Shown here one piece after another: positions 29,679-45,315 of a stretch of 64,000 nucleotides of DNA. Position 1 is the stretch's first letter. Each line of letters starts with the position of its first letter. The position numbers were made by a program, and so were the translations under genes. The notes under the pieces are model-generated. The model was not told the origin of the DNA. It searched no databases and worked only from the letters and a program-made list of their open reading frames with translations. Source of the stretch: Shimia abyssi (GTDB lineage Bacteria; Pseudomonadota; Alphaproteobacteria; Rhodobacterales; Rhodobacteraceae); contig NZ_PYGJ01000001.1 of assembly GCF_003014475.1 (NCBI RefSeq), positions 434,001-498,000 on the forward strand, written 5' to 3'.

Positions 29679-30419
29679 TCATGGTGTCAGGCGATGGGCG
29701 TATAGCTGATCGTAATGGGGTTTCATCCGTCGATGCACCTGTTTGACCCGGTCTGGCAAATCCACCAGCGACACGTATTTGCGCACCTGCGGCCTCAACC
29801 CGGTTGAACGCGCAAGATTGGCGTGAAAAGACCCGCCATCCCACCAGCTATGCTCGGACGGGTCACCCCCAGGCTCCCACGTAAGTGCCTCTTTGATAAA
29901 CGAAATGCCAACCGCACGGCAAAACGCCCGCGTCATAGCTTCCGGGTCCTCTAACAAATCATCGCTGTCGATTACCGGCGGCGGTGTGCCATTCAGCGCC
30001 CAGAGCAAATCAAACAATGCGCGCTGTTCGGGAAAGCCCACCTCACCCTCGTGAAAATCCGGCCATTTGTCATTCATGGACGTGATCGTCTTGGCTGGGT
30101 CGCGGATCAGAAAAGCATGGGTGAAATGCGACAGAAAGTCTGCGTCCCATATATGATTGATATAATGCGGGAAATCCTTAATAAACACCGGCCCGGCCTG
30201 CGCTCTCGTCTGAATATCTGTCCAGACGGTTTCAAGCGTCAGTCCGGGTGTGGTCACTTCTCCGGGGCGATAGCGGTGCCACAGCGGTACTTCGCCCTGA
30301 TACCATGCTTCACCAAATGGTTCGTGCAAACAATCCAGATCACCGCGCTGGCGCATCATCCATTCAAACGCGGTCGAGGTAGAGCGGGGCACGGCCCACA
30401 ATGCGATTATCTTATGCAT
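29679..30419 (-). CDS. Sulfotransferase-family protein
   Basis: A 246-residue protein. The start at 30419 gives an N-terminal strand followed by the PAPS-type 5'-phosphosulfate loop (WAVPRSTSTAFEWMM), and an RDPAK-type 3'-phosphate motif (FLIRDPAKTITSM) follows near 112. Known sulfotransferases move sulfate from PAPS to hydroxyl or amine groups, but this subgroup is poorly known. It overlaps the upstream gene by 8 bases and is part of the minus-strand operon. An acceptor cannot be named. Confidence 0.75.
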   Translation of the reverse strand: MHKIIALWAVPRSTSTAFEWMMRQRGDLDCLHEPFGEAWYQGEVPLWHRYRPGEVTTPGLTLETVWTDIQTRAQAGPVFIKDFPHYINHIWDADFLSHFTHAFLIRDPAKTITSMNDKWPDFHEGEVGFPEQRALFDLLWALNGTPPPVIDSDDLLEDPEAMTRAFCRAVGISFIKEALTWEPGGDPSEHSWWDGGSFHANLARSTGLRPQVRKYVSLVDLPDRVKQVHRRMKPHYDQLYAHRLTP

Positions 30420-31236: not shown

Positions 31237-31643
31237 AGCACTGGCTCCGCCCCATCCGCTGACCCCGCGTATTTCGGCAAGTCATCGGCAATCTTCACCC
31301 AAGGAAGCTTTTCGCCCCAGTGGAAATGCGCCCTTGGTTCAAACGATCCGGGGTCATCCAGCGTCGCGGCGTAAAGATGGGTTTCCTCGGGCCACCTCGC
31401 CGCCTGATAGGTCATCTGCGTCCCGCACTGCCCGCAAAACTGGCGGCGTACCTTGCCGTCCGAGGTTAGCGCTTCATCCAAAACGCCCGTCCATGTGACA
31501 CCATCTCTTGGCACCCCAAAGAACGACGTGAACGGCGCCGAACAGGCGCGGCGACAGCTGTCACAATGACAATGCCCCGCCCACAAAACCGGCCCCGCGC
31601 TGCGCCGGCGCACCCGCCCACAGAAACACCGCCCCGTCAACAT
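31230..31643 (-). CDS. GFA/CENP-V-family zinc protein
   Basis: A 137-residue protein with the zinc-binding Cys pattern of the glutathione-dependent formaldehyde-activating family: CFCG near the start, HCHCDSCRR at about 25-33, and FCGQCGT near 78. Family members add formaldehyde to glutathione or have other or unknown roles. Next to a Rieske oxygenase (3 bases downstream of its gene) and divergent from a demethylating dehydrogenase, a role in formaldehyde handling would make sense. That is inferred. Confidence 0.85.
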   Translation of the reverse strand: MLTGRCFCGRVRRRSAGPVLWAGHCHCDSCRRACSAPFTSFFGVPRDGVTWTGVLDEALTSDGKVRRQFCGQCGTQMTYQAARWPEETHLYAATLDDPGSFEPRAHFHWGEKLPWVKIADDLPKYAGSADGAEPVLC

Positions 31644-31646
31644 CGA

Positions 31647-32738
31647 TCACCCATCCACCGCCTCCCGCATCCATTGCTGAAGCGCCCGGATCGAATGTTC
31701 CGAACTCACTCCACAGCCGGGATCAAGAACCAAAGGACCGGGTCGATACCCCTTTGATTTCAAACCCTTCTGCACACTCTCCACAAGGCGGATATCTTCC
31801 TCAACAGTGGTCTCGCGATCCTGCACCGCCAGATCGCGAATGACATCGCTCTCATGGCCACCGGGTGTATACCAGCCGCGCCAGACACGACAGGCGTCCA
31901 CCCCTTCGGCCCGCCAATGATAGGTGTTCAGCACATTGCCCGGATAACACTGGAACGAGAACATCGGCCACAGGAACCAGCTTTGATAATCCCCGGCATG
32001 GGGCACAGACAAATCAATCGGATAGGTCATCTTCTCGATGCTCTGACACTCGGTCACATGGCGCAGCACATAGCCCCCGCTGGCATCTGGCTGAATGTCA
32101 TAGGTCTCGGGTTTGACGACACCCTCGGCAAAGGTCGCGTGGTTGATCGGACAGTGATAACACTCCGAATAATTCTCCACCGACACTTTCCAATTGCACC
32201 GCTCGGGCACCTCGACCCACTCCAACGGCGCCAGATCCGCTATATGCGGCACAAAAGCTGCGATCTCTTCACGCACCCCCGGATACCATTCATCCATCGG
32301 CGCGGCACCGTCATCAAGGTTCACGAACAGAAAGCCGTGGAAATCCTCTGTGCGCACTTCGGTCAGACAGATCTCGGATTTGTCAAATCCCGGCACCGAT
32401 TTGATATTTGGACCGGCGCGCAAGCCTCCCGTCAATTCATAAGTCCACGCATGATAGGGGCACACCACTACCCTCGTGTTGCCCGTCCCCGATACCATCT
32501 CATGCGCACGATGCTGACACACGTTGTAAAACGTGCGCACCATCTCATCGCGCCCGCGAATGGCAAACAGGCTCTGCCCTGCGACCTCAAAGGCAAAGTA
32601 ATCCCCAACGTTCGGGATCTCTGCCGCGTGGCCAGCAAACTGCCAGGTACGCGCCAACAGCCCGTCCTGTTCCTGCGCATAAATCGCCGCGTCGGTGTAA
32701 TACCGCGCTTCAAGCGACCGGATCAGCGGTGCGTTCAT
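31647..32738 (-). CDS. Rieske oxygenase alpha subunit, quaternary-amine type
   Basis: A 363-residue ring-hydroxylating-type oxygenase. The Rieske cluster ligands are C74-x-H76 and C93-x2-H96. The mononuclear iron site begins at N189-Y-S-E-C-Y-H-C-P-I-N-H, giving H195 and H200, with Glu192 where the classical family has the bridging Asp. A Glu there is typical of carnitine (CntA), glycine betaine and stachydrine demethylases. It should hydroxylate an N-methyl group, releasing formaldehyde. A reductase partner is not in the window. It overlaps the RpiR gene by 4 bases. Confidence 0.87.
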   Translation of the reverse strand: MNAPLIRSLEARYYTDAAIYAQEQDGLLARTWQFAGHAAEIPNVGDYFAFEVAGQSLFAIRGRDEMVRTFYNVCQHRAHEMVSGTGNTRVVVCPYHAWTYELTGGLRAGPNIKSVPGFDKSEICLTEVRTEDFHGFLFVNLDDGAAPMDEWYPGVREEIAAFVPHIADLAPLEWVEVPERCNWKVSVENYSECYHCPINHATFAEGVVKPETYDIQPDASGGYVLRHVTECQSIEKMTYPIDLSVPHAGDYQSWFLWPMFSFQCYPGNVLNTYHWRAEGVDACRVWRGWYTPGGHESDVIRDLAVQDRETTVEEDIRLVESVQKGLKSKGYRPGPLVLDPGCGVSSEHSIRALQQWMREAVDG

Positions 32739-33622
32739 ATGGCCTCCTCCTGATATATCCCCAACTCATGACGGCGCTTGTGAAACGTCTCCACACGCTC
32801 CACGATTTCCGGGCTGGCGCTGGCAATCACAAAGCTCAGCAATGTCTCCAGAAACGCGATGGTCGACACCGAGCTTGGGAAAAACTGCGGCGTATCGGCG
32901 GCCACGACAAAGCCAAAATCTGCCCCCCGAACAATCGGCGAAGCGGGCGAATCCGAAATCCCGACAACCTTGATCCCCTGCTCACGCGCCAGCGCCACCG
33001 CTTCGATCACTTCACGCCGGTACGGACGACATGTCATGGCGATCAGCACATCACGCCCATCAGCAAAGGCGATATCGTCAATTGGCGTCGACCCGGGGCG
33101 CGGAATGGCGTGAAATTGCACCATGCCCGTGCTCGCCAGATAGGTGAAATTGCGCGCGTTGGAATTGTTCACCCCCACGCCCAACGTATAAACATTGCGC
33201 GACGCCCAGATCGCTTCGGCCGAGGCGCGCAATTGCTCTTCGCTGATCCCGGCAAACGTCTCTTCCAGATTGCGCAGCGCCGCCGTCACCATATCGGCAT
33301 ATAACCCGCCCAGCTCTCCCTGCCGCCGGATATCTTGCAACCACCTTGCACGATCAGGAAAACTGGCGTCCCCTCGTCGAATCGCGTCTCGGAACGGCTC
33401 GCGGAAATCCTCGTAACCTTCGAACCCCACCTGTCGCGCCATACGAACTACGGTGTTGGGCTTCACCTGCGCCGCTTCGGCAATTTCTCGCACCGTCGAA
33501 ACCCCCACATCACGAGGGTTTTCAAGCACATAACGGGCCACTTTCTGCGCCTCGGGCGTCAGGTCATCCCATTCATCGGAGAGGCGGCTCAGCACCGTAT
33601 TTGATACATTTGTGTCATTCAT
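32735..33622 (-). CDS. RpiR/MurR-family transcriptional regulator
   Basis: A 295-residue regulator. The N-terminal HTH_6 domain (VSTVREIAEAAQVKPNTVVRMA) is at about 35-65, and a SIS sugar-isomerase-type domain with VYTLGVGVNNSNARNF is at about 140-260. RpiR proteins sense phosphosugars or other small ligands through SIS. It begins at 33622, choosing the ATG that fits the family's short N-terminus over an ATG 129 bases upstream. It diverges from the flavoprotein gene at 33693 across 70 bases, so it probably controls both operons. Confidence 0.9.
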   Translation of the reverse strand: MNDTNVSNTVLSRLSDEWDDLTPEAQKVARYVLENPRDVGVSTVREIAEAAQVKPNTVVRMARQVGFEGYEDFREPFRDAIRRGDASFPDRARWLQDIRRQGELGGLYADMVTAALRNLEETFAGISEEQLRASAEAIWASRNVYTLGVGVNNSNARNFTYLASTGMVQFHAIPRPGSTPIDDIAFADGRDVLIAMTCRPYRREVIEAVALAREQGIKVVGISDSPASPIVRGADFGFVVAADTPQFFPSSVSTIAFLETLLSFVIASASPEIVERVETFHKRRHELGIYQEEAI

Positions 33623-33642
33623 GATTGACGATGGTACAAATG
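33607..33642. promoter_or_regulatory. Inverted repeat over the RpiR start (possible operator)
   Basis: CATTTGT (33607-33613) and ACAAATG (33636-33642) form a 7-bp inverted repeat spaced by 22 bases, spanning the RpiR start codon and the divergent promoter. It may be an autoregulatory site. A single 7-bp repeat with a long spacer is weak evidence. Confidence 0.25.
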
Positions 33643-33692
33643 AACGCTTAGCCTGTCCAGCGAAAACAACTGTCCCAAAACGAGTCGCGCTC

Positions 33693-36149
33693 ATGGCCAC
33701 CTCATCTCTTCCTACCCACGCCCGCGTTGTCATTGTCGGAGGCGGCGTCATGGGCGTGGGCCTTGCCTACCACCTCGCTCACGAAGGTTGGGGCGCCGAC
33801 ACAGTGCTGCTTGAAAAAGGCGAACTCACCAGCGGCTCCACATGGCACGCCGCAGGGCAAATCACCCATTCCACCAGCTCTTTCAGTTTGGGCAAATGCG
33901 TCGACTACAACATCGGCCTCTATTCCGGCGGGCTTGAGGCCGAAACCGGTCAGGCCGTCACATGGCATGGCTGCGGGTCTTTTCGGCTTGCATATGACAA
34001 TGACGAAATGGACTGGTTGCGCCATACGCTTTCTGTCGGGCGCACGCTCGGCTTCAATATTGACCTCGTCACACCAGACCAGATTGCCAAACTACACCCG
34101 TACTACAACCTCGACGGTGTGATTGGCGCTTTGCACACACCTGACGACGGCCATGTCGATCCGACAAATGTTACCATGGCCATGGCCGCAGGCGCCCGTG
34201 AATTGGGGGCCAAGATTATCCGCCGCTGCCGCGCCACCAATATCTTCAAACGCGGCCACGAATGGGTCGTGGAAACCGATCAGGGCACGATCACCTGCGA
34301 GCACGTAGTCAATGCGGGCGGCACCTATGCCCGTCAAATGGGCGACTGGTCCGGCCTGCAACTGCCCATGACCTCGATGACACACCACTATTTTGTCACC
34401 GACGAAGTGCCCGAGTTCCGAGGTCTCGACACCGAATTGCCCGTTATCCGCGATGATAAAAAAGTCTCTGGCTACATCCGAATGGAGCAAAAAAAGGGTC
34501 TTATCGGCATCTATGAAAAAACTAACCCCAACGCGGTCTGGCTTGATGAATGCCCTTGGGATTACGAAAACTGGCTGTTTGATCCGGATTATGACCGGGT
34601 CATGCCGTGGCTTGAAAATGCACTCGACCGTATGCCGATTTTTGCTGACCTTGGCATCACTCGCGATGTGCATGGCGCCATCTCGCACCCGCCCGACGGC
34701 AATCCGCTGATCGGTCCCGCGCCGGGTGTCGAAAACTATTGGTGCTGCTGTGGCACCCAAATCGGCATCGGCTGGGGCCCCGGCCTCACCCGCGAACTGG
34801 CCCGGTGGATGGTGCATGGGTCCGCCGACATTTCCATGCGCGATTACGATCCGCGCCGCTTCGGGGAATACGCCACCCCGGAATGGCAAGTGATCAAAGC
34901 CAAGGAAGACTACTGCCTGCGCCATGAAATCCCCTTCCCGCATTTCAACCGCCTCGCCGGTCGTCCGGTGAAACCCTCCCCCCTGCATGACCGCCTCAAG
35001 GAAAAAGGCGCGGTGCACGAAGAGGTCTTCGGCCACGAACGCCCCCGCTGGTTCGCACCACAAGGCGTTGAACAGCGCGATCACTATTCCTTCCGCCGCA
35101 ATATCGTACACGATATCGTCGCCGCCGAATGCGCAGCGGTGCGCGAACGTGTCGGCATTCAGGACATCTCCGCTTTCACCAAGATCGAAGTTTACGGCCC
35201 CGATGCCGCCGCCCTGCTCGACCGCCTTACTGCCAACCGCCTGCCACAAAAAATCGGCGGCATCGCCCTCACCCATATGCTCAACCGCCGCGGCCGGATC
35301 GAGCTTGAAACCACTGTCGTGAAACTGGCCGAAAACCGATACTATCTCGTCTGCGCTGCCTTCTTCGAAAACCGTCTGCTCGACCATCTCAACGCCCAGC
35401 GCGCCGAAGAAGACATCACCATCACCTTACGCTCTGATGACTGGGCCGCCCTTTCCCTCAACGGCCCTCGTGCACGCGACGTGCTCGCCCAGTGCACCGA
35501 CGCCGCGCTCGACAACGCGTCCTTCAAGTGGCTCACGGCCCAACAGATCAACGTCGCAGGCCACCCCGTCTGGGCCTTCCGCATGTCCTACGCGGGCGAA
35601 CTCGGTTGGGAACTCCATATCCCGCGCGACCACACCCTCGCCGTCTACGACGCCCTGTGGAATGCAGGTCGTCCTCACGGCATGGCAGATTACGGCTCTT
35701 TCGCCATGAATGCCCTGCGCATGGAAAAGGGGTTCAAGGGCGCTTCAGAGCTCACAAACGAGGTCACAATGGCCGAGGCAAACGTCCTGCGCTTTGCCCG
35801 CACTGACAAGGACTACCTCGGCAAATCCCACACCCTCAACACCGACACCCGCCCTTGGGTCTGCGCCTATCTCTCCATTGATCCCGACGGCGTTGAGGAC
35901 GGCCATGGCGGCGAAGCCGTCCTGCTCAACGACGACGTTGTCGGCTCCACTGCCTCCGTCGCCTACGGTCACAGCGTGGGCAAAATCCTCGCTTTCGCCT
36001 ACCTCAAACCCCACGCCGCCCTCCCCGGCACAAACCTCTCCGTCCTCATCGCAGGTGAACCCCGCCTCGCCCGCGTCCTCACGGAGCCCGCTTACGATCC
36101 CCAATCTCTGCTCCCTCGCACGGATAGCACCCAACAGGCCGCCGAATGA
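33693..36149 (+). CDS. Dimethylglycine/sarcosine dehydrogenase-like flavoprotein
   Basis: An 818-residue protein. The start at 33693 puts the FAD motif VVIVGGGVMGVGLAYHL at residues 12-28; His52 in GSTWHAAGQ matches the His that holds FAD covalently in dimethylglycine dehydrogenase. The DAO domain covers about 10-370, followed by a linker domain, then GcvT-like folate domains in about 430-810 (tail SVGKILAFAYL). Enzymes of this type take N-methyl groups off dimethylglycine, sarcosine or related amines and pass the carbon to tetrahydrofolate. It is the first gene of the plus-strand operon and faces the Rieske-RpiR operon. Confidence 0.92.
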   Translation: MATSSLPTHARVVIVGGGVMGVGLAYHLAHEGWGADTVLLEKGELTSGSTWHAAGQITHSTSSFSLGKCVDYNIGLYSGGLEAETGQAVTWHGCGSFRLAYDNDEMDWLRHTLSVGRTLGFNIDLVTPDQIAKLHPYYNLDGVIGALHTPDDGHVDPTNVTMAMAAGARELGAKIIRRCRATNIFKRGHEWVVETDQGTITCEHVVNAGGTYARQMGDWSGLQLPMTSMTHHYFVTDEVPEFRGLDTELPVIRDDKKVSGYIRMEQKKGLIGIYEKTNPNAVWLDECPWDYENWLFDPDYDRVMPWLENALDRMPIFADLGITRDVHGAISHPPDGNPLIGPAPGVENYWCCCGTQIGIGWGPGLTRELARWMVHGSADISMRDYDPRRFGEYATPEWQVIKAKEDYCLRHEIPFPHFNRLAGRPVKPSPLHDRLKEKGAVHEEVFGHERPRWFAPQGVEQRDHYSFRRNIVHDIVAAECAAVRERVGIQDISAFTKIEVYGPDAAALLDRLTANRLPQKIGGIALTHMLNRRGRIELETTVVKLAENRYYLVCAAFFENRLLDHLNAQRAEEDITITLRSDDWAALSLNGPRARDVLAQCTDAALDNASFKWLTAQQINVAGHPVWAFRMSYAGELGWELHIPRDHTLAVYDALWNAGRPHGMADYGSFAMNALRMEKGFKGASELTNEVTMAEANVLRFARTDKDYLGKSHTLNTDTRPWVCAYLSIDPDGVEDGHGGEAVLLNDDVVGSTASVAYGHSVGKILAFAYLKPHAALPGTNLSVLIAGEPRLARVLTEPAYDPQSLLPRTDSTQQAAE

Positions 36150-36158
36150 TCTATATTT

Positions 36159-36222
36159 CCTTTCGCCCCAAAAATCCTGGGGGAGTCGCGCCCGCGCGAC
36201 GGGGGCAACGCCCCCCGCCACC
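36159..36222. repeat. Interspersed intergenic palindromic repeat, copy 1
   Basis: A GC-rich element with TTTCGCCCCAAAAATCCTGG, a palindrome GTCGCGCCCGCGCGAC, and the hairpin GGGGGCAACGCCCCCC. It shares its layout with the elements at 39349 and 40554. It lies between the flavoprotein and MDR genes of one operon and may act as a transcript attenuator or stabiliser. Confidence 0.6.
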
Positions 36223-36244
36223 CCAATCCAAGGAGCACCCATAA

Positions 36245-37327
36245 ATGACCCTTCCCACCACCATGAACGCAATGGTCCTTACCGGACATGGCGACCTCGA
36301 CATGTACCACTGGCACACCAACTGGCCCGTGCCCGCGCCAGCCCCTGGCGACGTCCTGATCCGCGTGCGCGCATGTGGTCTCAACAACACCGACGTCAAC
36401 ACCCGCTCGGGTTGGTATTCCAAAACCGTGGACGACGCTACCACCGGCGGTGCGTTTGACGAAGTCGACGAAACCGACCCCACATGGGGCGGCCGGCCCC
36501 TCACATTTCCCCGCATCCAGGGCGCTGATATCTGCGGCGAAATCGTCGCCGTTGGATCAGACATCGACCCGGCCCGTATTGGCGAACGCATTATCTCGGA
36601 TAACTGGCTGCGCGACCCGGCCGACCCTGACAACAAAGACAAAACCGGCTACTACGGCTCCGAGCGTGATGGCGGCTACGCCCAATACACCACCATCCCC
36701 GCAACCAACGCCCTCGCCGTCAACAGCCCCCTTTCTGACGCCGAACTTGCCACGTTTTCCTGCTCTTACTCAACCGCCGAAGGGATGCTTACCCGCGCCA
36801 ATGTCACCGCCACCGATACGGTGCTTGTCCCCGGTGCTTCGGGCGGCGTCGGTGGTGCGCTGGTCCAGCTTGCCAAGCGCCGCGGCGCCCGCGTCATCGC
36901 CCTTGCCTCCGAGGCCAAACACGCCGAGGTCGCCACACTCGGCCCCGACATCATCCTGCCCCGCGCGCCCGAATACCTGCGCGCAGCCCTTGGCGACGAA
37001 AAGATCACCGTGGTCGCTGACGTCGTTGGCGGCGCACAATGGGCATCCCTGATTGACGTGCTCGAACGCGGAGGGCGCTACACCTGCTCAGGCGCTATCG
37101 CTGGCCCCATGGTCACGCTTGATCTGCGTACCTTCTACCTGCGCGACCTCACTTTCACCGGCTCCACCGTGATCGACCCACAAGTCACCCGAAACTTGAT
37201 AAAATATATCGAAGCTGGCGAAATCAAACCGGCGCTGGCCGCCACTTACCCTCTCTCAGAGTTGCGCGACGCCCAATCTGCCTTCATCGCCAAACACCAC
37301 ACCGGCAACATCGTGGTCATCCCATGA
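36245..37327 (+). CDS. MDR-superfamily zinc-independent oxidoreductase
   Basis: A 360-residue medium-chain dehydrogenase/reductase. It has the GroES-like N-terminus (GDVLIRVRACGLNNTDVNT) and the NADPH-binding PGASGGVGGALVQLAK in residues 198-213. I do not see the catalytic Cys and Glu of the zinc alcohol dehydrogenases, so it is more like a quinone oxidoreductase or enoyl reductase. AAGGAG is at 36229-36234. Its stop overlaps the DddQ-like gene (ATGA). Its substrate in the pathway is not known. Confidence 0.88.
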   Translation: MTLPTTMNAMVLTGHGDLDMYHWHTNWPVPAPAPGDVLIRVRACGLNNTDVNTRSGWYSKTVDDATTGGAFDEVDETDPTWGGRPLTFPRIQGADICGEIVAVGSDIDPARIGERIISDNWLRDPADPDNKDKTGYYGSERDGGYAQYTTIPATNALAVNSPLSDAELATFSCSYSTAEGMLTRANVTATDTVLVPGASGGVGGALVQLAKRRGARVIALASEAKHAEVATLGPDIILPRAPEYLRAALGDEKITVVADVVGGAQWASLIDVLERGGRYTCSGAIAGPMVTLDLRTFYLRDLTFTGSTVIDPQVTRNLIKYIEAGEIKPALAATYPLSELRDAQSAFIAKHHTGNIVVIP

Positions 37328-37914
37328 ACGCCCTGACTTCCGTCCTGAATGCCGCGCGGGCGCTGCACGCATCCCATTCCAAGCTGCACGCCTTTGCGCC
37401 ATGGCCCGACGATCTGACCCCCGCGAACCTTCCGTCCCGCCCCCTCCCGGCCAGCGATCTGGTTGCCAACACGCACCTCACCGGCGTCGACATGACCCAA
37501 CCACTGATTGACGCTGTGCGCGCGACCGCCGGTTTCGCCAATTGGAAACACACATATCGTGAAGACGAAGTTGGAGCCGACTTCCTTGCACGTTATGGGT
37601 ATTACGAGCTTTTTGGCCCAACTGGTCATTTCAGAACCACCAAATTGCGCGGCTACATCGCTTATTGGGGATCCGGGCTGCATTATGACTGGCACAGCCA
37701 CGAGGCCGAAGAGATCTACCTCTGTCTGTCAGGCAACGCGCGCTTCCTGTGCCGCAACAACGGTACAGAACACATGGCTGACCTGTCCCCCGGCGACACG
37801 CGCGCGCACACCAGTTGGCAAACGCACGCAATGACAACCGCACACCAGCCCATTCTCACATTCGTTCTCTGGCGCGGCACGGGCCTCGCTGGTCTTCCAT
37901 TGATGGCAACCTGA
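37324..37914 (+). CDS. dddQ: DddQ-like cupin, DMSP lyase family
   Basis: A 196-residue cupin. The metal site reads W-H124-S-H126-E-A-E-E130-I-Y132, which has the spacing His-x3-Glu-x-Tyr described for DddQ (where the Tyr is catalytic), and the fourth ligand would be H162 or H168 in AHTSWQTHAMTT. DddQ cleaves dimethylsulfoniopropionate (DMSP) to acrylate and dimethyl sulfide. The whole protein fits the family in length and motifs, but members of this fold next to other pathways may use other substrates. It is overlapped by the MDR gene upstream and lies 4 bases before an enolase-family gene. Confidence 0.8.
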   Translation: MNALTSVLNAARALHASHSKLHAFAPWPDDLTPANLPSRPLPASDLVANTHLTGVDMTQPLIDAVRATAGFANWKHTYREDEVGADFLARYGYYELFGPTGHFRTTKLRGYIAYWGSGLHYDWHSHEAEEIYLCLSGNARFLCRNNGTEHMADLSPGDTRAHTSWQTHAMTTAHQPILTFVLWRGTGLAGLPLMAT

Positions 37915-37918
37915 CGCC

Positions 37919-39031
37919 ATGAAGATCACCCGCATCCGCATATACAAAACACCCCTGCCTTATGTCGGCGGCACCTATGTCTGGGGCGCAGGCAACGCCA
38001 TCAAGACCGCCATTGCCTCGGTTGTTGTACTGGACACCGATGCGGGCCTTCAGGGTTGCGGAGAGTTCACACCTTGCGGCGAAAACTACATGGTCGCCCA
38101 TTCTGAAGGTGTCCAAGCCCTCGCCCGCCTCCTCGCGCCCCATCTCCTCGGACAAGACCCGTGCCAAGTCGCCAAAATCGAACAAATCATGGATCACACC
38201 GTTCAGGGTCACGGCTATGCCAAAGCTCCCTTTGACGCCGCCTGCTGGGACATCCTCGCCCAATCCTGCAACCAGCCGCTCTGGATGCTACTTGGTGGCA
38301 AGCTCACTGACGGCGCCCCCATGTACCGCGTCGCCCCACAAAAAGAGACCTCCGAGACGATCGCCGAACTCGATCGATACCGTGCTCTGGGCTACCGTCA
38401 GTTCCAGATCAAGGTTGGCGCCGACTGGTCCCATGATATCGATCGCATCCGCGCCACCGTGCCCTTGCTTCAATCCGGCGAAACCGCCATGGCTGACGCC
38501 AATCAGGGCTGGCGTGTCGACCACGCCATTCGCGTCGCCCGCGCCACAGGAGATCTCGACTTCATCCTGGAACAGCCATGCCGCACCTACGAAGAATGCC
38601 AGCAGGTCCGTCGCGTCGCCCAACACCCGATGAAGCTCGACGAATGCGTCACGGGCATCCATGCCGCACAGCGCATTGTCGCTGACCGTGGCGCAGATCT
38701 CTGTTGCCTCAAAATCTCCAACCTCGGCGGCATCTCCAAGGCCCGCCGCGTCCGCGACTACCTGATCGAAAACCGCATTCCCGTGGTTGCCGAAGACACA
38801 TGGGGCGGGGAAATCGCCACCGCCACCTTGTCACATTTCGCAGCGTCCACACCGCCACAATACCTGCAAAACACAACCGACCTGATGAATTACAACACTC
38901 GCTCCACCGGGCTCGGCGGTGCGACTGCCAACGACGGCCAGCTTTACGCCCCCGACACGCCCGGCCTGGGCGTTACCCCTGATTTCAACAGTCTCGGCCC
39001 GCCTGTCGCCACCTACGGAGACCCAACATGA
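37919..39031 (+). CDS. Enolase-superfamily racemase/epimerase, copy 1
   Basis: A 370-residue mandelate racemase/muconate lactonising enzyme-type protein. The catalytic bases are K165 (QIKVG) and K265 (LKISNLGG); the magnesium ligands are D193, E218 (LEQP) and D241 (KLDE). Two opposed Lys bases fit 1,1-proton transfer (racemisation or epimerisation). The order and residues resemble HpbD, the hydroxyproline-betaine 2-epimerase of Pelagibaca, and I place it close to that family. It follows dddQ by 4 bases and overlaps the small cupin by 4. Confidence 0.88.
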   Translation: MKITRIRIYKTPLPYVGGTYVWGAGNAIKTAIASVVVLDTDAGLQGCGEFTPCGENYMVAHSEGVQALARLLAPHLLGQDPCQVAKIEQIMDHTVQGHGYAKAPFDAACWDILAQSCNQPLWMLLGGKLTDGAPMYRVAPQKETSETIAELDRYRALGYRQFQIKVGADWSHDIDRIRATVPLLQSGETAMADANQGWRVDHAIRVARATGDLDFILEQPCRTYEECQQVRRVAQHPMKLDECVTGIHAAQRIVADRGADLCCLKISNLGGISKARRVRDYLIENRIPVVAEDTWGGEIATATLSHFAASTPPQYLQNTTDLMNYNTRSTGLGGATANDGQLYAPDTPGLGVTPDFNSLGPPVATYGDPT

Positions 39032-39315
39032 ACGACATGACCTGCACCGCAACCCAGCTGATTGATGACCCCCGCACCCGCGTGACCCGCTTTGACTTTG
39101 AACCAGGTCAGCAAACCGGCTGGCACACCCATGCCATGGACTATGTGATCACCGCCGTCACCGATTGCCACATGCGCCTCGAACACCCCGACGGCACCAC
39201 CACCGAAACCCATGTTCCCGCTGGCATGGCCTATCGCCGCGACAAAGGCGTGCAACACAATGTCATCAACGCAGGCGCCGCGCAGATGTCCTTTGTCGAA
39301 GTCGAGCTCAAATGA
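39028..39315 (+). CDS. Small cupin-domain protein
   Basis: A 95-residue single cupin. The metal motif is GWHTHAMDYVI near residues 31-41, with a possible fourth ligand at GVQHNVIN. Small cupins of this sort bind a metal and may be isomerases, dioxygenases or ligand sensors. It overlaps enolase copy 1 by 4 bases, so it is in the same operon. It is unlike the DddQ-like cupin at 37324. Function unknown. Confidence 0.82.
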   Translation: MNDMTCTATQLIDDPRTRVTRFDFEPGQQTGWHTHAMDYVITAVTDCHMRLEHPDGTTTETHVPAGMAYRRDKGVQHNVINAGAAQMSFVEVELK

Positions 39316-39348
39316 CTGACGCTTCGAAACCCCCGGTAACCCTCATTC

Positions 39349-39413
39349 CATTCGCCCCAGATACTCTGGGCGCGCGGGGGCAGCGCCCCCGCCCGCTGGC
39401 AACGCCAAAGGCT
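39349..39413. repeat. Interspersed intergenic palindromic repeat, copy 2
   Basis: It begins ATTCGCCCCAGATACTCTGG, then has the hairpin GGGGGCAGCGCCCCC, then CAACGCCAAAGGC. It lies between the small cupin and enolase copy 2. It shares its modules with copies 1 and 3. Confidence 0.6.
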
Positions 39414-39436
39414 CCAATCCTAATAAGGGTCCTGCT

Positions 39437-40549
39437 ATGAAAATCACCCGCATCTCCGTTTTTCAGGTCAACCTGCCGCTCGAGCACCCCTACTGGCTCT
39501 CAGGGGGGCGTCTGAAGTTCGAAACCCTCGACGCCACCTTCGTCAAACTCGACACCGACACCGGGCTCACCGGATGGGGCGAAGGGACACCATGGGGACA
39601 TACCTATGTGCCCGCCCACGGCCCCGGCATCCGTGCGGGTATCGAAACCATGGCGCCCTTCATCCTCGGCCTCGACCCGCGCCGCATTCTCGATGTCGAG
39701 CGCGCCATGGATCTTTCTCTTCCAGGTCATCTCTACGCCAAGTCTCCCGTCGACATGGCCTGCTGGGACATCGCCGGTCAGGCCGCGGGCCTGCCCATTG
39801 CGGACCTCATGGGCGGAGGTTCGCGCACCCCGCGCCCCATTGCCTCGTCCGTTGGTGCGAAAACCATCGACGACACCCGCGCCGTCATCGATCGCTATCG
39901 CCAGCGCGGCTACGTCGCACACTCCGTCAAAATCGGCGGCGACGTCGAACGCGACATTGCCCGTATCCGCGACGTCGAAAGCCTGCGCAAGCCCGGCGAA
40001 ATCGTGCTCTATGACGTCAATCGCGGCTGGACCCGCCAACAGGCCCTGCGAGTGATGTCAGCGACCCAAGGCTTGCAGGTGATGTTCGAACAGCCCTGCG
40101 AAAGCCTTGACGACATCGCCGCCATCCGCCCGCTACATTCCGCCCCGGTCAGCGTCGACGAATCCCTCGTCACTCTGCAAGACGCAGCACGCATCGCCCG
40201 CGACGGGTTGGCCGAGGTCTTTGGCATCAAACTCAATCGGGTCGGCGGCCTGACCAAGGCCGCACGTATGCGCGACATCGCCCTCGCCCACGGCATCGAC
40301 ATGTTTGTCATGGCCACCGGCGGCAGCGTGCTTGCAGATACCGAGGCCCTGCACCTTGCCGCCACCATCCCAGACGACAATTGTCACGCGGTCTGGGCAT
40401 GTCAGGATATGATCACCACCGACATCGCCTCTGGACGCGGCCCACGTAATACCGACGGCCACCTGCATCTGCCTGACACACCCGGCCTTGGCGTGCATCC
40501 CGACGAAGACTGCCTTGGCTCGCCGGTTGCAATCTATGAGCCCAGCTAA
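39437..40549 (+). CDS. Enolase-superfamily racemase/epimerase, copy 2
   Basis: A 370-residue paralogue of copies 1 and 3. Catalytic residues fall at the same numbers as in copy 1: K165 (SVKIGG), D193 (YDVN), E218 (FEQP), D241 (VDES) and K265 (GIKLNRVGG). The end CLGSPVAIY is like that of copy 1. It is separated from the cupin and from copy 3 by repeat elements. Each paralogue may handle one stereoisomer or one related substrate; the loop regions that set specificity differ. Confidence 0.88.
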   Translation: MKITRISVFQVNLPLEHPYWLSGGRLKFETLDATFVKLDTDTGLTGWGEGTPWGHTYVPAHGPGIRAGIETMAPFILGLDPRRILDVERAMDLSLPGHLYAKSPVDMACWDIAGQAAGLPIADLMGGGSRTPRPIASSVGAKTIDDTRAVIDRYRQRGYVAHSVKIGGDVERDIARIRDVESLRKPGEIVLYDVNRGWTRQQALRVMSATQGLQVMFEQPCESLDDIAAIRPLHSAPVSVDESLVTLQDAARIARDGLAEVFGIKLNRVGGLTKAARMRDIALAHGIDMFVMATGGSVLADTEALHLAATIPDDNCHAVWACQDMITTDIASGRGPRNTDGHLHLPDTPGLGVHPDEDCLGSPVAIYEPS

Positions 40550-40553
40550 TGCT

Positions 40554-40652
40554 TCCTTTCGCCAAAAATATCCCGGGGGTGAATTGGCCAGCGGCCAAGA
40601 GGGGGCAGCGCCGCCCATTTGCTTGCGGCGACGCCAAAGGCGTCGCAAGTCC
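40554..40652. repeat. Interspersed intergenic palindromic repeat, copy 3
   Basis: A longer copy: CTTTCGCCAAAAATATCCCG, then GAATTGGCCAGCGGCCAAGA, GGGGGCAGCGCCGCCC, and a strong hairpin GCGACGCCAAAGGCGTCGC. It lies between enolase copies 2 and 3. Confidence 0.65.
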
Positions 40653-40670
40653 TAACGCGAGCGTAACACC

Positions 40671-41774
40671 ATGAAACTCAAACGCATTTCCATCTGGCAT
40701 GTCGACCTCACAAGCCATGAAACCTACCACATGGCCAGCGGCAAAACCTGCGCCACCGTCGAAACCGTGGTGATTGCGCTCGACACCGACACCGGCCTCA
40801 CCGGCTGGGGCGAGGTCTGTCCGATCCCGCATTACCTGCCTGCCTTTGCCCGTGGCGTCGCCCCCGCCCTCACCGACCTCGCCCCCACCCTGCTCGGCGC
40901 AAACCCCATCGGCCCCGAGGCGCTCATGGCCCGCGCCGAGGCGCATCTGATAGATCACCGCTACGCCAAATCTGCCCTCGACATCGCGCTCTGGGATCTG
41001 ACCGGACGGGCCGCCAACCTGCCGCTCCACGCGCTCCTAGGCGGTCAACAAGCCGATACAATGCCGCTCTATCACTCGATCACCTCAATCGCCCCCGACG
41101 ACATGGCCGCAATAGCCCGCGACGCGCAAACCACGGGCATCACCCAATTTCAGGTCAAACTGGGTGCGTCAGGCGATTGGCAAACCGATGTCGAACGCCT
41201 GACAAATGTTCGCGAAACGGTCGGCCCCGGCCCGCTGGTCTATGGTGACTGGAATTGCGGCACCACCTCGCTCGAAGCCACCCGCGTCGGGCGCGCTGTG
41301 GCCCATCTCGACATTATGCTCGAACAGCCCTGCGCCACAATTGCCGAGTGCGCCCGTGTCAAAAACGCCACCGGCCTTCCAATGAAACTGGACGAGGCCG
41401 CCCATGACACCGCCACTCTGCTCGACGCCCATAACAAAGAATGTATGGACGCCGTCGCCCTGAAACTTTCGAAATTCGGTGGCCTCTCCGCCACCCGCGC
41501 CGCGCGCGACCTATGCCTGCATCTGGGCGCCAAAATGTGCGTCGAAGACACCTGGGGCTCCGACATCACCACCGCCGCGCTCTTGCACCTCGCCGCCAGC
41601 ACCCCACCCGCGCGCCTGCTCAATACGTGCGATCTTTCAGGATATGTCGCTCCTAGGATAGCGCCCGATGGACCCACTCGCCAATCTGGCCGAATCTCCC
41701 CGCCGAACGGCCCCGGCCTCGGCATCACACCGGACCGCGATCTCCTCGGCCCACCTGACCTGATACTGGACTAA
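40671..41774 (+). CDS. Enolase-superfamily racemase/epimerase, copy 3
   Basis: A 367-residue paralogue. Residues: K163 (FQVKLG), D193 (GDWN), E218 (LEQP), D241 (KLDE) and K265 (LKLSKFGG). It ends in GPPDLILD. The N-terminal lid differs most from the other two. It is 4 bases before the aminotransferase. Probably an epimerase or racemase of an amino- or betaine-type acid, by comparison with HpbD; direct evidence is lacking. Confidence 0.88.
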   Translation: MKLKRISIWHVDLTSHETYHMASGKTCATVETVVIALDTDTGLTGWGEVCPIPHYLPAFARGVAPALTDLAPTLLGANPIGPEALMARAEAHLIDHRYAKSALDIALWDLTGRAANLPLHALLGGQQADTMPLYHSITSIAPDDMAAIARDAQTTGITQFQVKLGASGDWQTDVERLTNVRETVGPGPLVYGDWNCGTTSLEATRVGRAVAHLDIMLEQPCATIAECARVKNATGLPMKLDEAAHDTATLLDAHNKECMDAVALKLSKFGGLSATRAARDLCLHLGAKMCVEDTWGSDITTAALLHLAASTPPARLLNTCDLSGYVAPRIAPDGPTRQSGRISPPNGPGLGITPDRDLLGPPDLILD

Positions 41775-41778
41775 CCAA

Positions 41779-43053
41779 ATGCAAAAACTCTCCTCCAATG
41801 CCGATTGGGCAACCCGTGCACGTGCCGTCCTGCCCGGTGGCGGCTTTGGCAACTTCGACCCCTCCGTCTTCATCAAATCTGGCTCTGGCGCGCGCGTCAT
41901 AGACGAGGACGGGCGTGAATACGTCGACTACCTGATCGGCTCCGGCCCGATGCTCTTGGGCCATGACAATGCCGAAGTGCTCGAGGCCATCTACGAAACC
42001 CTGCCGCGCGGCCTGACCTTCTTTGCCAACAACGCGACCGCCATTGAGCTGGCCGAAGAAATCTGCCGCGCCGTCCCCGGCGGCGAGCAGCTGCGTTATG
42101 TCTCCTCTGGTGGCGAGGCCGACATGTATGCCATGCGCCTTGCCCGCGCCTATACAGGTCGAGACAAGATCGTGAAGTTCGAAGGCGGCTATCACGGCAT
42201 GTCCGCCGAGGCGCAGATGAGCCTCGCACCCGAAAAACGCGCCAACTTCCCCCAAGCCATCCCCGACAGCGCCGGTATCCCGCCTTCTGTGGCTGCCGAA
42301 ATGCTGATCGCCCCGTTTAACGATTTCGACTATATCCGCTCGCTTATGGCCGAATGGGGCCCAAAGGTCGCTGCGATCATCGTCGAACCCCTGCAACGCA
42401 TCATCCCGCCCCTACCCGGCTACCTTCAACTTCTGCGCGAAGAAGCCGACAAGTACGGTTGTCTGCTGGTCTTTGACGAGGTCGTGACCGGCTTCCGCCT
42501 GTCCTATGGCGGTGCTCAGGAACTCTATTGCGTGACACCCGACATCACCACGTTGGGCAAAGCCATCGGCGGTGGCTTCCCGCTGGCCGCGCTGGTCGCC
42601 AGTGCCGAGATCATGGCCCACTTCGACAAAACACAGGTCGGCGCCGAAGGCTGGCTGATGCAGCTGGGCACCCTGTCGGGCAACCCTGTCGCCGCCGCTG
42701 CTGGTCTCAAGACCCTCGAAATTCTCCGTCGTGACGGCCAATATGACACGCTGCGCGCCAATGGCCAGCGCGTCATGAACATGACGCGCACCGCGCTGGA
42801 CGCGACCGGCTTTGGCTACGAGATTGTCGGTGATCCCACCCTGTTCGAAGTGGTCTTTACAGATGCCCCCGTGCGCGACTATCGCGATGTGCAATCCTCC
42901 AACACGGCGCGCGCAACCGCCTATAACGAGACATTGCGCCAAGAGGGCATTTTCAAAGCAGCGGGCAAAACCTACCCCAGTCTGCCCCTCACCGAAGGCG
43001 ACTTCGCCATCACCGAGGCAGCCATTCAAAAAGCCGCTGCCGATTTGACGTAA
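41779..43053 (+). CDS. Class III PLP aminotransferase (GSA aminomutase-like)
   Basis: A 424-residue fold-type I PLP enzyme of the class III group. The PLP Lys is in TTLGKAIGGGFPLAA, the Asp of the pyridine in VFDEVVTGFRL, and the GSA-like GSGPMLLGHDNAEVLEAI is near the N-terminus. Similar to glutamate-1-semialdehyde aminomutase but in a catabolic operon and lacking heme-pathway context, so more likely an aminotransferase on a pathway amino acid or semialdehyde. It ends the operon, with a hairpin terminator 9 bases later. Confidence 0.9.
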   Translation: MQKLSSNADWATRARAVLPGGGFGNFDPSVFIKSGSGARVIDEDGREYVDYLIGSGPMLLGHDNAEVLEAIYETLPRGLTFFANNATAIELAEEICRAVPGGEQLRYVSSGGEADMYAMRLARAYTGRDKIVKFEGGYHGMSAEAQMSLAPEKRANFPQAIPDSAGIPPSVAAEMLIAPFNDFDYIRSLMAEWGPKVAAIIVEPLQRIIPPLPGYLQLLREEADKYGCLLVFDEVVTGFRLSYGGAQELYCVTPDITTLGKAIGGGFPLAALVASAEIMAHFDKTQVGAEGWLMQLGTLSGNPVAAAAGLKTLEILRRDGQYDTLRANGQRVMNMTRTALDATGFGYEIVGDPTLFEVVFTDAPVRDYRDVQSSNTARATAYNETLRQEGIFKAAGKTYPSLPLTEGDFAITEAAIQKAAADLT

Positions 43054-43061
43054 ACAAAACC

Positions 43062-43087
43062 ACGCCCCGGTCACCGCGCCGGGGCGT
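43062..43087. terminator. Bidirectional terminator hairpin
   Basis: A 9-bp stem ACGCCCCGG / CCGGGGCGT with an 8-base loop lies between the aminotransferase stop and the ridA stop (convergent genes). The minus-strand side is followed by GGTTTTGTTT and the plus-strand side by a short T-containing tail. Confidence 0.75.
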
Positions 43088-43115
43088 TGCCTTTGGATCC
43101 TGCGTCGAATGATGG

Positions 43116-43511
43116 CTACTGCATCGCCGTGGCCTCAATCTCAAACATCAAGCCCGGCACAGCCAACCGTGTCACCCCGAGTAAGGTCATCGGCGGTCTA
43201 TTGTCTACCGCGCCAAACCGCCGCCCCAACAGATCAAAGTGCTGCAACGCCGCGTCCACATCTGTCGCAAAAATTCCCAGCCGCACAATATCGCCCAGCC
43301 CCATGCCTGCCCCGGCCAGCACTGCCTCCAGATTGTCCAGCGCCAAACCAATCTGCCCGCGCATGTCGCCCATGTGCTGCGGCGCACCGGTGCCGTCCAC
43401 CGCCGTTTGCCCTGCACACATCACCTGGCAACGCGCGCCTTCAATCACTTCGGCCTGATGATACCCAAGCTTCACCGACCAATCCCACGGGTTCACTGCT
43501 AAGCGTTCCAT
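43116..43511 (-). CDS. RidA-family protein
   Basis: A 131-residue RidA/YjgF-family protein. The start at 43511 has AGGAG at a good distance; a GTG two codons upstream is too close to it. Members hydrolyse reactive enamine/imine intermediates. A putative Arg in the active-site region is visible in MGLGDIVRLGIFATD. It diverges from the WYL regulator and may be under its control. It is convergent with the aminotransferase operon across the hairpin. Confidence 0.88.
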   Translation of the reverse strand: MERLAVNPWDWSVKLGYHQAEVIEGARCQVMCAGQTAVDGTGAPQHMGDMRGQIGLALDNLEAVLAGAGMGLGDIVRLGIFATDVDAALQHFDLLGRRFGAVDNRPPMTLLGVTRLAVPGLMFEIEATAMQ

Positions 43512-43559
43512 TGTCACTTTCTCCTGTTTGCAATCACTGTCCCCTGACTAAAGTGAAAA

Positions 43560-43578
43560 GGTGCCAAAAACTGGCACC
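43560..43578. promoter_or_regulatory. Perfect inverted repeat between ridA and the WYL regulator (likely operator)
   Basis: GGTGCCA-AAAAC-TGGCACC is a perfect 7-bp inverted repeat. It sits 20 bases before the WYL regulator start and 48 bases from the ridA start. TATGCT at 43582 could be a -10 element. It is probably the operator of the WYL regulator and controls both genes. Confidence 0.6.
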
Positions 43579-43598
43579 ATATATGCTAGACTGACAAA

Positions 43599-44312
43599 AT
43601 GACTGTTCAACGCCGCCAAGATACCCTGATCCGTAGCCTGCGCCGCAGCGGCACTTCCACCGTCGACACCCTCGCCCAAGAGGTTGGCGCATCCCGGCGC
43701 ACGATTCTGCGCGACATCGGCGCGCTGCGGGATCAGGGGTTTGTTATCCACTCCGAACCGGGGCGCGGCGGCGGAATCCAACTGGACCCGTCCTCGATCC
43801 AAACCACCGCACGACTTTCGGTGCCCGAGGTCTTTGCCCTGCTGATCAGCGTCGCCGCCATGCGCGCCACTCGTAGCTTACCATTTTCAAACCTCGCCGA
43901 TGCAGGTCTTGCCAAGATCGAAAAGGCACTGCCCACCGACAAGGTGCGCGATCTGCGCCGCCTTCTCAATTGCCTGCATGTCGGCCAGCTCTCACCGCAA
44001 CAGGATCTTTCGGACATGGGCACCATGGACGCCGCCCTGCTGCCCGCATTCGAGGCGGCGTTTCTCCAAAACCTGCACTTGCGTTTTAGTTACCGCGACG
44101 CAAAAGGCCAGCACACGAACCGCACAGTTGAGCCTCAGGCCATGCTAATCCTGCCGCCGCTCTGGTATCTCGTTGCATGGGATCCAACGCGCCACGATTT
44201 TCGCCATTTCCGAATGGACCGGATCAACGCGCCCGAATGCATCACTGGCACGTCGTTCCCGCGTCGCCATGTCCCGTTCGAAGATGACGTCTGTCCTTAC
44301 AACGACCTCTGA
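43599..44312 (+). CDS. WYL-domain transcriptional regulator (YafY/DeoR-like HTH)
   Basis: A 237-residue regulator. The N-terminal HTH_11 (STVDTLAQEVGASRRTILRDIGAL) covers residues 18-41, and a WYL domain follows: residues 160-225 include LILPPLWYLVAWDPTRHDFRHF, with the W-Y-L motif. WYL domains bind small ligands or nucleic acid. It diverges from ridA and has a strong palindrome directly upstream, suggesting self-control. The 206-base gap after it holds no feature I recognise. Confidence 0.88.
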   Translation: MTVQRRQDTLIRSLRRSGTSTVDTLAQEVGASRRTILRDIGALRDQGFVIHSEPGRGGGIQLDPSSIQTTARLSVPEVFALLISVAAMRATRSLPFSNLADAGLAKIEKALPTDKVRDLRRLLNCLHVGQLSPQQDLSDMGTMDAALLPAFEAAFLQNLHLRFSYRDAKGQHTNRTVEPQAMLILPPLWYLVAWDPTRHDFRHFRMDRINAPECITGTSFPRRHVPFEDDVCPYNDL

Positions 44313-44518
44313 CGCGTGCTTGCTTCACATCCAGTACGCCCCGCAACGATTTGTTAAAATAATACTATCCGCTGATCAGGCAACGCGCGCCACATTAGCA
44401 ATTTCGGGCAATTCGCTAGCCCCAAGTTTCCACACCGACGCTATACCGACAGAATACCGACGTTTTACCGACGTCGCATTTTCAGCCGATTTCGCCCCTT
44501 TAACCATGCGGTACGATG

Positions 44519-44923
44519 CTATCGCTGGATGCTCTCCAAATAGGCCAAAAGCGCCGCCAACGGGCGTGGCGTGGGTGTAAACACACCGTCATCCGTCTGC
44601 ACAGGCACCAGATCCCCCTCCAGCAAAGCACCAAACTCTGGCATTTCCACACCGTCCACAGGATCACGGCTATACCCGTCGATCTGGCTCAGCACCACGG
44701 TCACTGGAAACGCCCCTCCGGCCCGCCGAGAGATCGTCGTCAGATCACTTGGCGCCGGGTCCAACCCCGCTGAAATCGCCCCGTTCCCGCGCCCGTCCGC
44801 GCCATGACACAACGCGCAATTTTCATCAAAAATTGCTTTTCCTTCAGGGGCTTCCGGCATTTCAGGCTCTGAACAAGCTACGATCACAGCGACCGCACCC
44901 AGACCCAACAAAAGGTTTCTCAC
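44519..44923 (-). CDS. Small c-type cytochrome, lipoprotein form
   Basis: A 134-residue protein with an N-terminal signal ending in a lipobox-like VIVACS, so it is probably a lipid-anchored periplasmic cytochrome. One heme site is CALCHG, with a Met ligand candidate in VEMPEFG. The body PSDLTTISRRAGGAFP recurs in the two genes upstream. It overlaps the second cytochrome by 4 bases and is last of the three. Electron partner unknown. Confidence 0.85.
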   Translation of the reverse strand: MRNLLLGLGAVAVIVACSEPEMPEAPEGKAIFDENCALCHGADGRGNGAISAGLDPAPSDLTTISRRAGGAFPVTVVLSQIDGYSRDPVDGVEMPEFGALLEGDLVPVQTDDGVFTPTPRPLAALLAYLESIQR

Positions 44924-45315
44924 TTCTGCGACTCCTTGAGGTATTCTACGAGGTCCGCCACCGGTTGTGATGTCATAATCGGCTGACCACTCGGGGCCTT
45001 AAGCGCAACATCGATCCCCTCGAAAAAGTCGCCATAAACCGGCATCGGACTGCCGTGACTCACCAAGGGATCGCGCCCATCGATACGTTTGATCACCCGA
45101 ACCAACGGAAATTCCCCATTGTTTTCATCACTTAGCACCGTCAAATCTACCGGTTTGACCACCATAACGCCCGCCATTGGCCCTTGTCCAGTCAGCTCAA
45201 CCCCATGGCACGCTGCACAATGGTTCCGATAAATCGCCGCCCCCTCTATGGCATCCGCCGCGTACAAAGCCCCAGGTAAAACCATGATTACAAAAGATAA
45301 AGCCAAACCCTTCAT
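44920..45315 (-). CDS. Small c-type cytochrome, middle of three
   Basis: A 131-residue secreted cytochrome. The start at 45315 has GGAGGAG 8 bases upstream and gives a clean signal peptide (MKGLALSFVIMVLPGALYA); an ATG at 45333 overlapping the previous stop would add six residues. Heme site CAACHG; Met candidate in GSPMPVYG. It shares the motif VDLTVLSDENNGEFP and IDGRDPL with its neighbours. Confidence 0.85.
   Translation of the reverse strand: MKGLALSFVIMVLPGALYAADAIEGAAIYRNHCAACHGVELTGQGPMAGVMVVKPVDLTVLSDENNGEFPLVRVIKRIDGRDPLVSHGSPMPVYGDFFEGIDVALKAPSGQPIMTSQPVADLVEYLKESQK

Follow-up and report, generated by a model that had tools for sequence, protein, structure and literature searches.

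Within the window, a 64,000-nucleotide stretch of the Shimia abyssi genome (contig NZ_PYGJ01000001.1), three enolase-superfamily genes, referred to here as copies 1, 2 and 3, stand together with genes for a Rieske oxygenase, a DMGDH-like enzyme, a class III aminotransferase and a DddQ-type cupin. We propose that these genes form an operon for the breakdown of N-methylated amino acids (betaines), in which a fixed core is joined by a set of alpha-proton-abstracting enzymes that can be exchanged, and the three copies act as specialists; we hold this reading with about even confidence.

Three distantly related enolase-superfamily genes

The three genes are as follows:

37919-39031, + strand: ENO1 (copy 1), enolase superfamily, with a dehydratase-like pocket; 370 amino acids (aa), 78% identity to 2RDX
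39437-40549, + strand: ENO2 (copy 2), aromatic pocket without the strand-7 and strand-8 acids; 370 aa, 88% identity to 3EEZ (Silicibacter pomeroyi)
40671-41774, + strand: ENO3 (copy 3), the core copy; 367 aa, member of a 40-row clade with no solved member

All three match the Pfam families MR_MLE_N and MR_MLE_C far above the cut-offs and are intact enolase-superfamily genes of the muconate-lactonizing type. An alignment with 235 relatives places the five catalytic residues at K165, D193, E218, D241 and K265 in copies 1 and 2, and at K163 plus the other four, unchanged, in copy 3. These residues, as well as the protein lengths, are as given in the first-pass annotation of this DNA, which had been made from the letters and their open reading frames (ORFs). 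Its description of three tandem paralogues holds in that the genes lie on one strand within 37919-41774, but copies 1 and 2 are separated by a cupin ORF of 95 aa (39028-39315). This small cupin, the DddQ-type cupin, the modular architecture of the operon and the dehydratase-like pocket of copy 1 had been missed.

The AlphaFold model of copy 3 (pLDDT 93.5) shows the arrangement of the enolase superfamily, with a Lys ending strand 2, D/E/D ligands and a Lys ending strand 6: K163, D193, E218 and K265 end barrel strands, and D241 lies just after one. Its best fold match is the cis-3-hydroxyproline dehydratase 4MGG (Z 53.9, 1.8 Å over 365 residues), which we take to be the Labrenzia aggregata enzyme mentioned below, as species and strain agree; 2RDX (52.1) and 4IZG (51.9) follow. 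The entries 4H2H (Pelagibaca bermudensis) and 4E8G/4IZG (Paracoccus denitrificans) presumably represent HpbD, the proline betaine racemase.

Pairwise identities among the copies are 38, 37 and 33%. In a tree of 134 rows, built with a quick method after exclusion of five short rows (broken copies among them), each copy has its own clade. That of copy 1 comprises 18 rows (support 100) and includes its relative 2RDX; that of copy 2 comprises 28 rows (support 98), with its relative 3EEZ in the inner part and a 2QDD group as its sister; that of copy 3 comprises 40 rows (support 99) and contains no solved structure. Separate clades are formed by the 4MGG group (11 rows, support 99) and by HpbD with 4E8G and 4H2H (17 rows, support 100); the branching order among clades is less sure, with support of 86-87 and long-branch warnings. 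Judged from this tree, the copies are distantly related members of separate clades within one predicted operon. The entry names of 2RDX, 2QDD/3FVD, 2PCE/3FV9 (Roseovarius nubinhibens) and 3EEZ give the family only and no function. A related operon (L096) unites relatives of 2RDX, 2QDD and 2PCE with two DddQ-type genes.

Redundancy, with duplicates retained by chance or for dosage, would accord with the common family and operon of the copies, but identities of 33-38%, clades conserved across genera, unlike pockets and unlike presence patterns make this highly improbable, and we rejected it on the tree, pocket and presence data. The outcome that would have pointed to redundancy, a single clade with near-identical active-site loops, was not found in the tree, which included the HpbD group. 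The earlier suggestion of several substrates or stereoisomers is well supported by the three well-separated clades, by pockets fixed in each, and by the variable presence of copies 1 and 2 among operons with copy 3.

Invariant catalytic residues and clade-specific pockets

All five catalytic residues are conserved in 33/33 relatives of copy 1, 56/56 of copy 2 and 99-100/100 of copy 3. From the two Lys and three metal ligands a racemase/epimerase type had been deduced, a step that we find unsupported, since the same five residues are equally invariant in the 4MGG (13/13) and HpbD (17/17) groups and therefore cannot separate an epimerase from a dehydratase. Indeed, according to excerpts from PMC5144071, a Labrenzia aggregata enzyme performs both reactions.

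The differences in lid and loop regions, which had also been pointed out, are real: several residues within 20-27, 49-59, 134-139, 292-298 and 320-326 (copy 3 numbering) are fixed in a clade-specific manner, and 19 alignment columns are at least 95% fixed to three different residues across the three clades. Positions 320-321, just past strand 8 (which ends at 319 in the model), are T-D in relatives of copy 1 (33/33), W-A or W-S in those of copy 2 (W in 56/56) and C-D in those of copy 3 (100/100); the 4MGG group carries T-D (T 12/13, D 13/13) and the HpbD group W-L/I/V (W 17/17). The strand 7 motif is E-D-T/S-W in the copy 1 clade (D 32/33), E-(D or C)-T-W in that of copy 3 (D in 57 and C in 43 of 100) and M-A-T-G in that of copy 2 (56/56).

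Over 62 pocket columns, hand-chosen from strand ends and lid loops, consensus identity to the 4MGG clade is 56% for copy 1, 51% for copy 3 and 33% for copy 2, compared to 46, 43 and 42%, respectively, in the remaining columns. Pocket residues of the 4MGG clade are mostly present in copy 1, partly in copy 3 and mostly absent from copy 2; specifically, residues W22, N26, Y136, R137, Q141, E292, D293, W295, T320, D321 and Y325 of copy 1 are the commonest at those sites in the 4MGG clade. The R, Q and T of the dehydratase clade correspond to H135, S139 (C in 98/100 relatives) and C320 in copy 3. The pocket of copy 1 looks dehydratase-like, and that of copy 3 is a type of its own. In copy 2, M292, A293 and A321 replace acids of copies 1 and 3, and this loss, together with W20, F28, W53 and W320 (own numbering), suggests a pocket that would suit a quaternary ammonium group. 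Trp320 of HpbD presumably holds the betaine, and its presence in copy 2 hints, weakly, at betaine binding there as well.

One alternative is that all copies belong with HpbD as two-Lys racemases/epimerases and that each acts on another betaine stereoisomer (e.g. of hydroxyproline betaine). HpbD lies in the same superfamily neighbourhood and has the fold and the five catalytic residues in common with the copies, which are accompanied by an N-demethylating pair, and copy 2 keeps the Trp at 320. However, the copies are 30-36% identical to HpbD and none falls in its 17-row clade; W320 is missing from copies 1 and 3, which have D321 as does the dehydratase clade; five genomes with this operon type (G073, G139, G053, G176 and G200) have HpbD-clade genes elsewhere; and family models recognised no hydroxyproline-pathway enzyme among 16 scanned window genes. 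We thus consider this alternative unlikely.

The copies might instead be dehydratases of the 4MGG kind. By family model and fold, this is the nearest characterised enzyme: NF043002 is the best NCBIfam model for copies 1, 2 and 3 (388, 316 and 335 bits), 4MGG leads the fold matches of copy 3, and copy 1 has most of the examined pocket residues in common with it. Nevertheless, all three scores are below the 500-bit cut-off, identities are 38-42%, the 4MGG clade is separate, and the substitutions at 135, 139 and 320 in copy 3 and the missing pocket acids in copy 2 do not fit; we judge this possibility to be as doubtful as the previous one. One genome (G043) carries a 4MGG-clade gene in addition to this operon type. 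The separate clades and sub-cut-off scores led us to refrain from filing the copies under either HpbD or cis-3-hydroxyproline dehydratase.

A fixed core and a variable cassette

The operon type consists of a core, made up of the Rieske oxygenase, the RpiR regulator, the DMGDH-like enzyme, copy 3 and the class III aminotransferase, and of a variable cassette that comprises copies 1 and 2, the MDR reductase and DddQ-type cupins. In a survey of 248 genomes of the family, a copy 3 orthologue (at least 64% identity; next lower 42%) was found in 41 and a DMGDH orthologue (at least 68% identity) in at least 43 among the matches listed, with fragments in G078, G099, G236 and G041. Both occur in 39 genomes, that is 39/43 of those with DMGDH (among the matches listed) and 39/41 of those with copy 3. 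Of the genomes with DMGDH only, G200 and G109 carry copy-1-type enzymes in the operon instead, and the contigs of G098 and G041 end beside DMGDH or MDR; of those with copy 3 only, G160 has a contig that ends within DMGDH, and G194 a DMGDH that is 55% identical.

Among named genomes, 429 relatives were detected, from which the best 80 loci were kept, most with Roseobacter-group or Rhodobacteraceae names (exceptions include Kiloniellaceae, Granulosicoccus and an 'Oceanobacillus' record). We considered as complete the 67/80 loci with DMGDH, copy 3 and aminotransferase in order, and dropped 13 that were truncated or had no DMGDH or aminotransferase. None of the accessory genes is present in 20 of the complete operons, while MDR is found in 41, a copy-2-type enolase (3EEZ or 2QDD kind) in 40, DddQ in 31, copy 1 in 19 and the small cupin in 9. 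MDR and the copy-2 type are both present in 38, both absent in 24 and alone in 5 (Fisher 8.5e-13, a value overstated since relatives are not independent), and operons with copy 1 have MDR in 19/19 and the copy-2 type in 18/19 cases. On the copy 3 tree, MDR, copy 2, copy 1 and DddQ undergo 13-15 changes each, indicating that the cassette is mobile. Correction for kinship leaves 4-5 independent pairs from supported branches, which puts significance out of reach; copies 1 and 2 undergo the same change in 1.1 and opposite changes in 0.0 of 5 pairs, and for DddQ with copy 2 the corresponding figures are 1.1 and 0.1, again of 5.

Several loci depart from this layout. At L068 (G194, ~5900-13500), six successive enolase-superfamily genes, broken by a DddQ-type and a small cupin, lie near a divergent Rieske/RpiR set. 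Operon variants of Boseongicola and Silicimonas (L156, L167, L174, L192) are without orthologous RpiR and DMGDH, and their copy 3 is separated from the aminotransferase by the gene of a distant FAD enzyme (22-24% identity); in G201, a genome with this type of variant, a DMGDH orthologue stands on another contig. In L067, L162 and L187, a distant relative (28-29% identity) takes the place of the aminotransferase downstream of copy 3. Lastly, stops interrupt copy 3 of L054 (G167) and the 2QDD-type copy of L096 (G109), both apparently genes in decay.

A DddQ-type cupin in the operon

The gene directly upstream of copy 1 codes for a cupin of the family of DddQ, a lyase of dimethylsulfoniopropionate (DMSP):

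37324-37914, + strand: DddQ-type cupin (DMSP_lyase family); PF16867 59 bits (cut-off 27), DddQ 5jso/4la2 218 bits; 4-bp overlap with MDR

The protein scores above the PF16867 cut-off and carries the DddQ motif residues Y120, H123, H125, E129, Y131 and H163. Among 56 aligned DddQs from such operons, H125 is kept in 55/56 and the other five residues in 56/56. The solved DddQ 4LA2 is identical, over 187/187 residues, to an ORF of R. lacuscaerulensis ITI-1157 (L142:8317-8892) that lies between the MDR gene and copy 2; it is therefore the operon's own gene in Ruegeria lacuscaerulensis, set in an N-demethylation operon in which no acrylate-use gene was recognised. Operon DddQs form several sub-clades, at times with two genes per operon, and in the DddQ tree 4LA2 belongs to a 65-row clade with 56 operon rows alongside 8 further ones, the operon rows being oversampled.

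DMSP_lyase genes are not generally linked to this operon. They occur in 118/248 genomes (102 over the cut-off), with at least 23 inside such operons among the matches listed. We inspected 40 other places, of which the 10 highest-scoring have no operon gene except the cupin (one is without a recognised cupin). At 16 of the remaining 30, at least one homologue of the Rieske, DMGDH, MDR, aldehyde dehydrogenase (ALDH), aminotransferase, enolase, CMD or 5'-arm genes is present, mostly at 22-38% identity, as is readily given by such large families. Close relatives of operon genes stand at two of the 30, L233 (G200) and L235 (G141), which are satellite loci with DddQ-type genes beside close relatives of the 5' arm or of MDR and CMD. 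At L220, L225 and L227, distant DddQ-family cupins lie outside the operon, beside a DMGDH-like and two Rieske-type genes (25-33% identity).

A link to an MDR gene is common to our loci and to dddQ of R. pomeroyi DSS-3 and dddQ1/Q2 of R. nubinhibens, as described in excerpts from PMC3338564, whose section on the dddQ neighbourhood makes no mention of enolase-superfamily, Rieske, DMGDH or aminotransferase genes. Among the papers searched, none joins DddQ with 'enolase' or 'mandelate racemase'. The role of DddQ was reportedly called into question by a 2018 paper in Biochemistry on DMSP-lyase-like cupins, which may overlap with the present observations.

The cassette could serve DMSP and related sulfonium osmolytes, with the N-demethylation core as a neighbour of convenience. 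The lyase activity of DddQ has been measured, dddQ is induced by DMSP, and R. pomeroyi dddQ mutants form 97% less dimethyl sulfide (DMS), all of which favours a true DMSP role (excerpts from PMC5395565); in addition, 4LA2 is the operon gene itself. However, the same excerpts give a Km for DMSP of 22 mM, the MDR gene near dddQ of Roseovarius nubinhibens did not restore acrylate resistance (excerpts from PMC3338564), and DddQ, where present in complete operons, lies among core genes on one strand. We regard a DMSP cassette as quite improbable. The related cupin lyase DddK forms C-N bonds with acrylate (excerpts from PMC12582016), and a C-N role is therefore chemically possible for DddQ. Its occurrence in such an operon suggests that its true function may be broader than assumed.

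Neighbouring genes and spacers

The remaining genes around the enolase-superfamily copies are listed below:

27811-28200, - strand: carboxymuconolactone-decarboxylase family protein (CMD), 5' arm; Pfam CMD 68 bits, PcaC model under cut-off; recurs in many related loci at 79-93% identity
28225-29844, - strand: ALDH, BADH/aminobutyraldehyde-like; Pfam Aldedh 517 bits, best NCBIfam models under cut-off; recurs in part of the loci
29679-30512, - strand: sulfotransferase-domain protein; Pfam Sulfotransfer_5 72 bits; recurs in few loci
30412-31236, - strand: arylmalonate-decarboxylase-like protein; Pfam Amdase 25.9 bits, right at the cut-off; recurs in part of the loci
31230-31643, - strand: GFA-family (glutathione-dependent formaldehyde-activating) protein; Pfam GFA 79 bits
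31647-32738, - strand: Rieske oxygenase, core gene in relatives; nearest solved relative carnitine monooxygenase CntA (6y8j), 204 bits
32735-33751, - strand: RpiR-family regulator, start probably near 33622; Pfam HTH_6 and SIS; divergent from DMGDH in most loci
33612-36149, + strand: DMGDH-like FAD and GcvT N-demethylating dehydrogenase; human DMGDH (5l46) 509 bits; Pfam DAO, FAO_M, GCV_T
36245-37327, + strand: MDR-family oxidoreductase; Pfam ADH_N, ADH_zinc_N; counterpart of SPO1593/ISM_14095 by context alone
39028-39315, + strand: small single-domain cupin, 95 aa; Pfam Cupin_2 36 bits; 4-bp overlap with copy 1
39316-39436 and 40550-40670, + strand: spacers of 121 bp each, upstream of copies 2 and 3
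41779-43053, + strand: class III aminotransferase, HemL-like; GSAM (5i92) 291 bits, HemL models under cut-offs; starts 4 bp past copy 3

From MDR to the aminotransferase, the intergenic gaps are -4, 4, -4, 121, 121 and 4 bp, so that MDR, DddQ, copy 1 and the small cupin on the one hand, and copy 3 and the aminotransferase on the other, are tightly coupled. We rejected glycine betaine monooxygenase GbcA as an identity for the Rieske gene (153 bits vs a curated 670), and AcuI for the MDR gene (NF051456, 41.5 bits vs 440). Judging by their families, the simplest common denominator of the neighbours would be N-demethylation of an amino-acid-like compound. The hydroxyproline-betaine pathway reportedly consists of an epimerase, a Rieske enzyme and a flavin demethylase. 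The operon resembles it in layout and differs in having no copy in the HpbD clade and no hydroxyproline-pathway gene among the 16 scanned, and we would class it as a variant of this type of pathway. The sulfotransferase is the sole further ORF cluster present in at least 4 of 40 loci.

The two spacers have a GC-rich motif in common, the exact form of which occurs nowhere else in the genome and which, in 40550-40670, lies in the second half. This spacer has 23 further matches in the genome, all inside its positions 1-70, indicating that its first half is a dispersed repeat. Neither spacer has an exceptional predicted fold (z -0.99 for the one before copy 2 and -1.73 for the one before copy 3), and no Rfam match was found in 28000-45000. 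Outside the operon, a long ORF at 25465-27639 (- strand) seems, by eye, to join an NADH-dehydrogenase-like FAD domain to a SelD-like domain.

Proposed pathway

From the families, clades, pocket residues and behaviour of the modules we infer all reactions of the following scheme, as well as their order and substrates. In the core, the Rieske oxygenase and the DMGDH-like enzyme would strip N-methyl groups, and copy 3 would take the alpha proton of the demethylated (N-H) amino acid, leading to epimerisation or to elimination of a beta substituent, with aminotransferase and ALDH passing the product on. Copy 2 and the MDR reductase could act on a quaternary, still methylated relative, and copy 1 could dehydrate or epimerise a beta-hydroxylated amino acid. 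For the DddQ-type cupins, an onium carboxylate may be the substrate of a metal-dependent beta-elimination. In this manner, the three specialist copies would funnel different forms into a single route.

A number of observations weigh against a betaine operon with specialist copies. The 80 loci were fetched with copy 3 as the query, and its constancy among them is thus by construction; its core status relies on co-occurrence with DMGDH across genomes and not on this set. After correction for kinship, MDR and copy 2 undergo the same change in 2.8/4 pairs and opposite changes in 0.0 on average, which is not significant, and copy 1 and DddQ display no trend (0.5 same, 1.1 opposite of 5). The pocket of copy 2 has chiefly W320 in common with that of HpbD and is without Y134, D292, D293, W295 and Y325 (copy 3 numbering). 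We found no conserved transporter in 40 loci, a soft negative, as the crude choice of ORFs favoured long overlapping ones. The DMSP phenotypes of dddQ described above point in the same direction.

In a bolder form of the proposal, the operon would handle marine N-methylated amino acids of a class not yet described, by a modular pathway in which the three enolase clades and the DddQ-type cupins are interchangeable entry enzymes that abstract an alpha proton; DddQ would have evolved as the C-N (onium) lyase of this pathway, slow DMSP cleavage being a side activity. Proline betaines that are 3-hydroxylated, or N-trimethyl headgroups from algal betaine lipids, would be examples of such substrates. 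This extension is speculative, and we lean against it.

Implications

Close relatives of 2RDX, 3EEZ, 2QDD and 2PCE, structures whose entry names give no function, are now placed in one conserved operon type of the marine Roseobacter group, and each enolase clade gains a prediction based on its pocket. The gene of a solved DddQ is located inside an N-demethylation operon, and this overlooked setting, a DddQ gene with a mobile cassette, is in our view of greater interest than the observation of three enolase-superfamily copies itself. If the main substrate of DddQ were indeed a nitrogen compound, counts of dddQ in ocean metagenomes would overstate DMSP cleavage.

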